Shown piece after piece: positions 23,376 through 42,198 of a stretch of DNA of 64,000 nt (position 1 is its first letter; each line of letters starts with the position of its first letter). The DNA comes from Ischnura elegans. Its lineage: Eukaryota > Arthropoda > Insecta > Odonata > Coenagrionidae. The stretch lies in contig NC_060246.1 in the NCBI RefSeq assembly GCF_921293095.1, positions 138,756,198 through 138,820,197 on the forward strand. The letters run 5' to 3'. A program made the position numbers and the translations under genes. The notes under the pieces were generated by a model. It saw only the letters and a list, made by a program, of their open reading frames with translations, ran no database searches and was not told the DNA's origin.

Positions 23376-26300
23376 TTAATCCGCTTGACATTCTTTTGTA
23401 CCAGATCCATCATCTTCATGAGTTGATGTGTGCCAGGTCAACCTCTCCTCATAGAATTGAATCACAATCTGTGGGCAACGGACGTTAGCTTGGCGAGCAG
23501 GCACCAAGTCTGCTTCATCTGTTCCCTTCCTATTCGAAAGAGAGACAGAGATACTGTAAATTATGAATATCTGTAATACTTATGGAACAAATCATAAGAC
23601 TCTATCGAATTGAGAGAATAATTACACTAACAGGGTTTGGGAAGCAAACAACAATTTGACAAAATACTTTCTATAAAAACGGAAAAAAAATAGGTCCAGT
23701 AGTATACCAAGAGGGGAGAAGGACCATATATGATATACAGCTGAGCACCCTGAATCCAGATTTCCCTAATCCAGGGACCCCCATGATTCTTCAAAATTCC
23801 AAGTGGTGCTTAGCAAGGAGCATAATTTTTTGCTTAATTTCTGCAGACGTGTTCACCAGCTGAAACTGTTTCCCACTCTAAACAAATATTCTCCAGGACA
23901 CGCAGTTACCCTTATAACACTTAATTGCCAAGTCAGAAACTGCTACATGCACTGCCAATGTCATGCAGGCAAGGCTAGACCTGCACACCTGGCACATTGT
24001 CCTGCCGTAGAGCAGATGGAGGACGAGCATGAGTACCTATCAGAGGACTTTTTAAATAAGTACTCTTTATTACTTATTGTAAAAATTATAGTACGATTGT
24101 TGGAAAGTACTGTGCAATGAAGACCTCTATTAAATGATTGAAAATGCAGCTATCCATAAATATATTGGGTCACTACCTTGTTGCCAAGACAAGATAGTTA
24201 TGTTGCAGAGATGGGCCGTAAAAGATGGATAAGAAGAAACGGTGAGTCAGCTTTGTTGTGGCTCATACAAGGAAACCCTTTTCCCACAAAAATCTTCTCC
24301 TAAGGCATCCAACCACGAATATTACATCAGAGGATTCTCATGCCTGCAGCTCCGTGTGCATTAAAACCAGATTTCAAAATTGCCACTTGCGATGCTACCA
24401 ATCATCTATATCTACTTTTCTTGAGGAAATAAATGACAGTCATACATAACTGAGTCAATAAATCATATAAACCACACATTTAATGCATGCAAGACAATCG
24501 TCAACTGAAAAAGACCACTTCTACTACTGTTAATGGCGAAAGGTATACTAAGTCATAGCAAGATACAGCTGCATAGTGGCACTGCCGAATAAAAAGCACG
24601 CGAAACAGCACCAGGTATAAAGCTTAACCACCATGTACCTGGGTCTCCTTCAATAGTCCCTTGCTTCCACCTCACAATTAGTTGCTCTTTAAGTATCGAC
24701 AGGTATTCCCACTGATGGAAGCACCCGCGAAGCGGCAAGTGTTGATGGCGCATGCATAACAGACTGTTCACATGACACAGCGTACATGGATTGCAAGGGA
24801 TTTTTAATGCATACAAATGTTATATTTACTTTATTTTTTTACTAATGTAATGTTTGATATTCTGTTATAATCTCCATATAGGTGCTGTATCCATTCTTTT
24901 CACTCTGCTATTTTGCAATGCTACATGCAATGGCAGAATGACTGCTAGTAACTTTAGAAACAATTTATTTCTAATAAATTATAAATTCTCAGAAAATTAA
25001 AAAATTAATTTAAAGTTCAACTCATCTTGTGATGAATTATCATATCCCATCATTAAAACATTGCAGATTCCAAATTGTGCAGAGTGGACTTGTGACGTTA
25101 ACACCGTGATCGGTAAAACCAACCCTGAATTTTGCTCAGAGAAGATGGCTTGGTGCTGACATCGGTTAAAACGCCTGAATGGCAATTGGGAGATCTGGGT
25201 TTGCATTCCAGTTAAGCCAAATATTTTTTCATGGCGAGCTTCATCCTTGGTGTATACAAGCTTGTGATGATCAGTTTCATTGAAGACTACAGCTTTGCTT
25301 CATGCACCTTCCTAACAGAACTTCTTACATCGCACTTTGACAAGCATGTCTTTTGATGATTTATTGGACTGAGCAATTTTTTATCACAGCTGAATTCAAA
25401 AACAGCATGGATAATTGCAGCCCCAAATTACAGAATCTGAGCTTTTATCAGTAACTTACCATTACCAACACACAAGATACATAAAATTATTATTGTATTT
25501 ACATTTATCAAAACCCCACAAAACAATGACTTAAAAATTTTTGAATGTGGATATGTGCGATTAGGACCATAAAGAATGATACAAATGAGTTTTAGATTCC
25601 CTTCAGTCTTGGTAATGAATATTCACTTTTTCATCAAATTTTTATGGAACTTTTTTCAATCATATTATTTTCATTAAAAATTTGAAAATACAACAATAGG
25701 CAATAGTAAACAATGAAAATCACCTTTGTAGTTACCCAGCTATTTTATGGCCAAGATTATGTGATGACAGCCTTGACCTAAGAGGAGTGTTTCTTACTGC
25801 TCATTGGTTTAAATGCCCAATGATCTGATATAATAGTAAGGAGTGTAAGGGAATGAGTAAACAGTTGGCTATAGTTCATAAGCAGCGACAGGAATATCTT
25901 ACCATTTCATCAGGAACATTAGCTCTCCACTGGAATCAGTAGCACCAATTATTTTCTCTGGTTCAAGTGATCTGTCAAAACCTCGAGGCTTGTTGTCATC
26001 CTGTTCCAAAAAAATGTAAATTATCAATTCAATGAAAAAAATCGAGGCAAAGGAAAAAAGGTAAGGAATGATTTAAAACCTCATTAATAAACAGGCTTTG
26101 ATATAAGAAGACTTGGGAGATACAAAATACCCTATTTCGCATATTAAAATCTAATTTCAATTAAAAATCAACAAAAATTAGTTTGTATACATGATTTCTA
26201 TTAAAATTGATTTTTACTGTAACAATAATAAGTTGATATCACATTGAAACAACCATTCTTATTAATTTCTCACATTAGAGAACTTCACAAACAGATTAAA

Positions 26301-41300: not shown

Positions 41301-42198
41301 GGATCAGGGAAGTTCTGGTTTTGGCAGAAAACTCTGTCACAATCAGCATATGAGCCTGCACAATATCGTGGTGGAACACCATCATGAGGGACGAAATTTG
41401 ATGTGACTCGTGTCATGCCCTAAGTATCTATTAAGATTGTCTGACAGGATCCAAAACTAATGTTCACTTTTTTTTACTGCCTCCCTAACATTTAAACGGC
41501 TATTTACCCACACCAAATCGTTCACAAATTTGACATGGCTGGGGTCTGTCGATGTGGTAGGCCACCCCATTCACGAATATTTATGTGCCGAGGTTCTGTG
41601 CGATTTAAAATGACTACCACTCAAAACACTGGCTTCAACTAATAGCTTCATTAACTATGGCTTACTGAATTATTCCAAGCGTCTTCTAGCACTTTTGCTA
41701 AGTTTGAAACAAAATTTCTCGCTCACACACAGTTCCTGTAGCTTCTTCATTGCTGCCTTTGCCCAAAGTGAGAAACAGGTTAAGACACGTACTGCTGCTG
41801 CTAAGTAACGACTTGACGTAAACAAACACGACACCTTTCGTTTTAGTCGTCAGATATGTTGCAAGATGGTGCACTTTGTTTCGTTTCAATCCATTGTACG
41901 GTTTGCGCAGAATAAAATCAGTCCGGTCTTTTTTTGATCGAACCTTTAAGATGTTGCTCATGTCTCTTAATCTTCAGATGGGGGAAGTTGGTGCAATGAT
42001 GATTTCGGCAGTAATTACCGGCAAGGGCATGGAGGTGGGCCTCTGAGGGGTGGTCCTGTTGGTGTCCGTGCTGCCCCGTACTCTGGGGGACCACGTGACT
42101 GGCGTGGACCTGTAGGAAGGCGAGGAGGGGAGCCTGGTCCTTACCCTCCCATTGGTGGAGGTGGTGGTGGTGGATATGGAGGTGGCAGAAGGTTCTAA
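35383..42198 (+). CDS. hnRNP A/B-type RNA-binding protein, two RRMs, 336 aa
   Basis: Coding exons are 35383-35403, 35487-35638, 39372-39492, 39902-40112, 40189-40392, 40898-40978 and 41978-42198; phases fit throughout. Five introns are GT-AG. The one after 39,492 is GC-AG (CAG followed by GCAAGT). The protein is a nuclear hnRNP acting in splicing and mRNA export. RRM1 (about 20-96) has KLFIGGL and [11 protein letters not shown]2 (about 110-188) has KLFVGGL and RGFAFVEF; the linker ends EPKRAVPRQ. The tail is Gly-rich with RGG and GWGG stretches. Residues 285-298 (GPLRGG, R294, P297-Y298) resemble the M9/PY-NLS of HNRNPA1. Drosophila Hrb87F/Hrb98DE and vertebrate HNRNPA1/A2B1 are the closest families. 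The last intron is almost wholly a mariner copy. Confidence 0.95.
38400..38600 (-). repeat. tRNA-derived SINE, family B, in hnRNP intron 2
   Basis: On the minus strand GTTGGCAGCGGGGTAACG, CTCGCCTGCCA and a perfect box B (GGTTCGAGTCC) reproduce a tRNA-Gly-like head. A body shared with 58,147-58,332 follows (CCAGGGCATGG.TGTTTGTG; CTCCGGTGTAAA). The acceptor stem and the 3' half do not pair as a tRNA, so this is a SINE. Its 3' limit is approximate. Confidence 0.7.
41024..41946 (-). mobile_element. Decayed mariner element filling hnRNP intron 6
   Basis: Terminal repeats AAGGTGTGATCAAAAATTGA (left) and the inverse of AAGGTTCGATCAAAAAAAGA (right) continue to GACTGATTTTA, with TA on both sides (41,022-41,023 and 41,947-41,948). 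On the minus strand fragments fit a mariner transposase: [20 protein letters not shown], ISxSQCFEW, a damaged version of the catalytic region, and the C-terminal [12 protein letters not shown]. Many stops and frame shifts are present. The left end is 45 bp from the splice donor, the right end 31 bp from the acceptor. Confidence 0.85.

Follow-up and report, generated by a model that had tools for sequence, protein, structure and literature searches.

A head-to-head HP1 and hnRNP A/B gene pair in Ischnura elegans, its CpG-retaining block and its probable kinship with the vertebrate CBX/HNRNPA pairs

Does the divergent arrangement of an HP1 gene and an hnRNP A/B gene, as found in the vertebrate pairs CBX3/HNRNPA2B1 and CBX5/HNRNPA1, reach back beyond the vertebrates, and does it come with a common promoter region? 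The question is raised by a stretch of 64,000 nucleotides from Ischnura elegans (hereafter the window; contig NC_060246.1, positions 138,756,198 to 138,820,197 of the forward strand), in which an HP1 gene on the minus strand and an hnRNP A/B gene on the plus strand are adjacent and divergent, with their 5' ends facing each other across a single block that has retained its CpG dinucleotides. We consider it likely that this locus is the invertebrate copy of an ancient HP1/hnRNP A/B head-to-head pair with a common open promoter region. That pair probably had its divergent layout by the time of the last common ancestor of protostomes and deuterostomes, with CBX3/HNRNPA2B1 and CBX5/HNRNPA1 as its presumed vertebrate survivors. 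Transcription of both genes would begin in a single promoter region of roughly 0.6-1.3 kb, open, TATA-less and unmethylated in the germline, and would continue outward, together with methylation, through both gene bodies.

Two intact genes with facing 5' ends

The minus-strand gene encodes 190 amino acids in our model, with a chromodomain and a chromoshadow domain (Pfam Chromo, 6.3e-23; Chromo_shadow, 4.5e-31). Its top match in PDB is human CBX5 (192 bits, 9.3e-56), with 65% identity to the CBX5 segment, and its chromoshadow domain scored 126 bits against CBX1, with 79% identity to the CBX1 segment, vs 76 bits against 3p7j, a chain named Heterochromatin protein 1. An N-terminal chromodomain, a hinge and a C-terminal chromoshadow domain place the protein in the HP1 (CBX1/3/5) family. 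The spliced frame is complete and intact. The N-terminal tail and the first half of the chromodomain are encoded at 27,136-27,292, as read from the spliced frame, and the second half of the chromodomain and the hinge at 26,339-26,492 (spliced frame, Pfam frame scan). The first half of the chromoshadow domain follows at 25,903-26,000 (spliced frame, PDB alignments), and its second half, the C-terminus and the stop codon make up the last coding exon, 23,376-23,529 (spliced frame with acceptor tctctttcgaatag, PDB alignments to CBX1 and CBX5).

The plus-strand gene has seven coding exons and encodes 336 amino acids, comprising two RRMs (two RRM_1 stretches in Pfam; RRM_1, 2.1e-35) and a Gly-rich tail that ends in GGGRRF. 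Among solved structures it matches human hnRNP A1 best, with 280 bits over query residues 12-336, an alignment that takes in the Gly-rich tail as far as the terminal RRF, whereas hnRNP D-like reached 136 bits. The RRM segments of this protein and of human A1 are 59% identical, a distance that we consider too great for a vertebrate copy. The tandem pair of RRMs, the Gly-rich C-terminal tail and the greater nearness to A1/A2B1 than to hnRNP D-like assign the protein to the hnRNP A/B family. This spliced frame is complete and intact as well. It starts with the exon coding MVKTEQD (35,383-35,403), whose donor outscores every other plus-strand GT site assessed in 35,250-35,480, and continues with the first part of RRM1 (35,487-35,638; spliced frame, Pfam frame scan) and its second part (39,372-39,492; spliced frame). 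Intron 3 begins there with a GC-AG donor, CAG|GCAAGT, at 39,492-39,493. Most of RRM2 is encoded at 39,902-40,112 (spliced frame, Pfam frame scan), the end of RRM2 and the start of the Gly-rich tail at 40,189-40,392 and more of the tail at 40,898-40,978, both from the spliced frame, and the last coding exon, with GGGRRF and the stop codon, lies at 41,978-42,198 (spliced frame, PDB alignment).

The initial annotation of this locus had HP1 reading leftward and hnRNP A/B rightward, which agrees with the two complete spliced frames and the hnRNP A/B ATG at 35,383, and the bounds it gave, 23,376 and 42,198, each coincide exactly with the final base of a stop codon. In the open reading frame list, which was read by eye, no gene stands between the two; the Pfam scan left out 27.4-35.3 kb.

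The coding start of HP1 is predicted. The best candidate is a short exon at 33,614-33,666 on the minus strand, which would hold 5' untranslated sequence and the ATG at 33,623-33,621 and code for MSK plus one base. It has an acceptor (aatcttgttttcag), a CGCAAG-ATG context, the right phase and no upstream ATG. Its donor, AAG|GTATTG, is weak, at 0.5 on a donor matrix of our own, as are two donors of the hnRNP A/B gene (1.9 and 0.9). A scan for start exons in the right phase, in which each row was given the best acceptor within 150 bases upstream (33,666 for the ATG at 33,623), returned 18 candidate rows, and the row at 33,623 alone had no other ATG between acceptor and start. Six rows had donors more than 1 unit above 0.5 (34,357; 33,953; 32,613; 32,148; 33,953 and 32,613 serve two rows each), and the best donor among the alternative rows scored 2.8. 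The row at 30,846, which would give the HP1-like MAK|K, was rejected with a donor of -2.2 and three upstream ATGs. Translation could also begin within the chromodomain exon, at METFSVEKV, or with MFFTEG in an extended exon; both starts were judged less likely than MSKE, because the upstream residues read as an HP1 tail and because the exon 33,666-33,614 has acceptor, context, phase and no upstream ATG. From the predicted HP1 ATG to the hnRNP A/B ATG the distance is 1,760 bp.

The CpG-retaining block and the question of a shared promoter

Over both presumed starts lies one contiguous CpG-retaining block, 34,368-35,722, a candidate shared bidirectional promoter. In a maximal-segment scan of 18.5-46 kb, it scored 32.9, a value reached by 0 of 2000 shuffles (null maximum, 16.5); the scoring values were picked after the CpG profile had been seen, which makes the exact p optimistic. 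The second-best segment (41,788-42,121) scored 13.0, below the null maximum, leaving the block as the only segment above the null. The observed/expected ratio of CpG was 1.17 in 34,350-35,900, and 1.14 in the non-coding part of that region, vs 0.46 and 0.48 in the flanking gene bodies. Of 255 Cs in the block, 56 preceded a G, vs 269 of 3,138 in the remainder of 23,376-42,198 (Fisher p = 5.9e-10, for a test region, 34,350-35,900, that was chosen after the profile was seen). In the 800-bp windows that cover about 18.4-46 kb, the ratio stayed at 0.13-0.63, except in the windows at 34,401 and 35,201, and 34,300-36,000 held no repeats that would account for the block. Elsewhere in the 64 kb, CpG is at normal levels over most of 1-17.6 kb (0.69-1.25), between about 51 and 56 kb (0.73-1.14) and in a single window of 800 bp at 46.4 kb (1.02).

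TpG/CpA was in excess in the HP1 and hnRNP A/B bodies, at 1.24 and 1.28, and stood at 1.11 in the block. Together with the CpG depletion, the excess in the gene bodies is as expected of methylated gene bodies, and we propose that CpG was lost in both because transcription and methylation run through them. Judged by its CpG content, the stretch 34,368-35,722 looks like one unmethylated, TATA-less bidirectional promoter; no match to TATAWAAR was found in 34,600-35,500. The broad CpG-depleted domain, about 18,400-46,000, matches both genes together with their likely 3' ends. Perhaps it is a methylation shadow by which transcription units can be recognised.

Where HP1 transcription would start within the block depends on a predicted non-coding first exon at 34,746-34,900 (minus strand), placed by donor rank and by its position inside the block; the bound at 34,900 is arbitrary. 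The donor AAG|GTACGG at 34,746 scored 4.9 on the same matrix and ranked 2 of the 90 GT sites on the HP1 strand in 33,700-35,250. The end of this exon is 637 bp from the hnRNP A/B ATG, and both transcription start sites are predicted to lie within that stretch, provided that the 34,746 donor is right; such a spacing would suit a bidirectional promoter pair, whose start sites are less than 1 kb apart. In the initial annotation HP1 ran from about 34,900 with a few hundred bases between the genes. The coding start is predicted at 33,623 and the chromodomain begins in the exon 27,292-27,136, therefore the 34,900 of that description must mean the non-coding first exon, for which the CpG block gives support; in the same way, the few hundred bases depend on that predicted exon.

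The best-scoring donor on the HP1 strand in 33,700-35,250 tells against this first exon: CGG|GTGAGT at 34,093 scored 7.2 vs the 4.9 at 34,746 and lies outside the CpG block. HP1 might thus start at an internal promoter near 34,100-34,400, or in its long intron, leaving the block as the promoter of hnRNP A/B only. In 400-bp windows CpG rises gradually toward the block from the HP1 side, the position of the HP1 start is a prediction, and human CBX1 and CBX3 are described with alternative first exons (PMC4721113). Set against these points, the block already begins at 34,368, about 1 kb upstream of the hnRNP A/B ATG, and no second segment of 18.5-46 kb rises above the null, and we regard an internal start as distinctly unlikely.

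With HP1 and hnRNP A/B both starting in the block, as we prefer, two further points still weigh against our reading. The GC content between the predicted end of HP1 exon 1 and the hnRNP A/B ATG is 35%, unlike that of the GC-rich islands of mammals; GC-richness and CpG retention are therefore separable. Besides, expression of CBX5 and hnRNPA1 is reported as uncorrelated in NCI-60 despite their common promoter region, while that of CBX3 and hnRNPA2B1 is highly correlated (PMC4721113). Shared regulation is therefore not a necessary outcome of the layout, and co-regulation alone may not be the reason for the pair. This opens the way for an ancestral pair with separate promoters, kept by inertia or by interleaved nearby regulatory sequence, with no shared promoter or chromatin-opening role; CpG retention, moreover, tells of missing germline methylation and not of shared regulation. 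On the other hand, the CpG-retaining block is single and contiguous, not two, and the spacing of 637 bp, if correct, gives little space for insulation. We hold separate promoters to be possible though rather doubtful, and the shared promoter put forward in the initial annotation gains indirect support from the single block.

The human CBX5/hnRNPA1 promoter is described with YY1, E2F and MYC motifs (PMC4721113). Among 19 patterns scanned, the E2F-, E-box- and YY1-like ones gave one consensus match each in 34,600-35,500: an E2F-like TTTSGCGC at 34,913-34,920 on the minus strand (one of 2 in the 64 kb), a CACGTG E-box at 34,801-34,806 (one of 15) and a YY1-like AAAATGGC at 35,275-35,282 on the minus strand (one of 7). 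A conserved promoter grammar was rejected as a reading of these single matches among 19 patterns, and they were not counted toward homology.

Ancestry of the pair

In a cichlid, cbx5, hnrpa1 and nfe2 are reported to adjoin HoxCa, and snx11, cbx1 and nfe2l1 to adjoin HoxBb (PMC2080641); human NFE2L3, HNRNPA2B1, CBX3 and SNX10 are placed no more than 500 kb from a HOXA-regulating gene desert (PMC10762089). Cbx and Hnrnpa serve as Hox-linked markers in the hagfish genome paper, where amphioxus provides the root (PMC10927551), and the bidirectional promoter of CBX3/hnRNPA2B1, of 0.4 kb, has been described as 'suggesting an evolutionary relationship' with CBX5/hnRNPA1 (PMC4721113). Considering two Hox-linked divergent vertebrate pairs, we infer that the pair predates the vertebrate genome duplications. 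A divergent neighbour of this sort would arise by chance with a roughly estimated probability of 7e-5 to 4e-4, on our assumptions of 15,000 randomly ordered genes, 1-3 HP1 genes and 2-4 hnRNP A/B genes. The best reading is that the pair, orientation included, goes back with the vertebrate pairs to a bilaterian ancestor, because of the identity of the genes, their divergent orientation, the low odds of coincidence and the two Hox-linked vertebrate pairs. The age thus suggested is drawn from this window and from the vertebrate literature.

Several observations weigh against so old a pair. The HP1a and hnRNP A/B genes of Drosophila are not known to be adjacent. The invertebrate side of the comparison is this locus alone. 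A survey of flies and vertebrates suggests that most human divergent pairs may be younger than the deuterostome-protostome split (PMC2670823). No SNX10/11-like PX or NFE2L-like bZIP domain was found by six-frame Pfam in 1-23.4 kb and 42.2-64 kb, so that the wider vertebrate block was not seen there. Searches with the hnRNP protein, the hnRNP alignment A1 and HP1 against viral contigs, and with alignments A1 and A2 against bacterial/archaeal contigs, returned 0 relatives, as expected in such collections. As for earlier descriptions, which do not bear on the age, no report of an invertebrate HP1/hnRNP A/B pair was among the open-licence literature matches listed, a set that does not include Irimia 2012 on ancient metazoan microsynteny, the likeliest prior report.

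A chance or lineage-specific juxtaposition, unrelated to the vertebrate pairs, would fit the single non-vertebrate locus and the possibly late origin of most human divergent pairs (PMC2670823), and scanning a window offers many possible pairs to notice. It is nevertheless very unlikely in our view, given the low prior under the assumed gene numbers, the match in order as well as orientation, and the amphioxus-rooted Hox linkage of vertebrate Cbx and Hnrnpa (PMC10927551), which, without drawing on this window, points to a pair from before the duplications. The proposal of the initial annotation that the pair predates the arthropod-vertebrate split thus stands as the best reading of gene identity, orientation, the chance estimate and the vertebrate pairs, with one non-vertebrate locus examined.

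The likeness to the human pairs is close in layout and partial in detail. CBX3/HNRNPA2B1 contains the ubiquitous chromatin-opening element (UCOE) known as A2UCOE, described as two divergent housekeeping promoters in a methylation-free CpG island of about 3 kb that resists silencing (PMC9764128, PMC1175082). The pair studied here has the same combination of an HP1 and an hnRNP A/B gene, divergent and with presumed starts in one CpG-retaining stretch, but the human island is about 3 kb long, its freedom from methylation was measured and its resistance to silencing assayed, whereas the present block is about 1.35 kb, with ordinary GC between the landmarks and a methylation state that we infer from CpG content. 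With CBX5/HNRNPA1 it shares the genes, the orientation, the lack of a TATA-like match and one each of the E2F-, E-box- and YY1-like consensus matches; it differs in that, in our model, the exon before the long intron (33,613-27,293) is a short one with the start codon and not exon 1.

A chromatin-opening, UCOE-like function of the intergenic stretch is put forward as a hypothesis, and so is the proposal of the initial annotation that such a function has kept the pair together. In its boldest form, which we think unlikely, the stretch would have served to open chromatin since the bilaterian ancestor, as a bidirectional promoter kept methylation-free and silencing-resistant for more than 500 million years in both the protostome and vertebrate lines. 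Such an element would perhaps be a feedback point, at which the promoter of a heterochromatin protein must itself resist heterochromatin. If the pair is common to protostomes and vertebrates, the history of the A2UCOE locus, which is used in expression vectors, would reach further back than the cited papers state, and invertebrate copies would be natural test pieces for what makes promoters resist silencing. The pair would also predate the split that most human divergent pairs are suggested to have followed (PMC2670823).

Surroundings and intronic elements

The pair resembles the Hox-linked SNX/CBX/HNRNPA/NFE2-type blocks of vertebrates in having CBX-type and HNRNPA-type genes as neighbours. 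It is unlike them in that no PX, bZIP or homeobox domain was found in the scanned parts of the 64 kb and that, at a distance of 21 kb past hnRNP A/B, a fibrillar collagen gene has its end. The six-frame Pfam scan returned RVT_1 and COLFI only; in a control on known exons (3 plus and 2/3 minus frames) it detected the two RRMs and one half of the chromodomain and missed the chromoshadow domain, showing that split domains can escape it. The last coding exon of the collagen gene, at 63,525-63,671 on the minus strand, is convergent with hnRNP A/B (COLFI in Pfam, 7.3e-14; collagen III in PDB, 5.8e-12). Vertebrate fibrillar collagens also occur on Hox-bearing chromosomes, and the collagen gene near the pair may belong to a linkage group of greater age.

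Two introns of the hnRNP A/B gene contain further elements. A tRNA-like stretch with a GGTTCGAGTCC box on the minus strand was noticed by eye in intron 2 (38,520-38,610) and is perhaps a short interspersed nuclear element; ARAGORN predicted 0 tRNAs in the 64 kb, this stretch included, and Rfam gave 0 matches in the 64 kb at the gathering threshold. Intron 6 harbors, at about 41,032-41,939, an element of about 0.9 kb with terminal inverted repeats that are 88% identical over 25 nt, which we take to resemble a decayed mariner-type transposon.

Downstream of HP1, at about 18,950-19,800 on the minus strand, a stretch resembles a decayed non-LTR (long terminal repeat) retrotransposon when read by eye, and at 1,748-4,564 on the plus strand several long frames resemble a repeated or mobile-element protein; neither had a Pfam match. 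A reverse transcriptase frame of the long interspersed nuclear element type lies at 11,298-12,302 on the minus strand (RVT_1, 7.1e-17).

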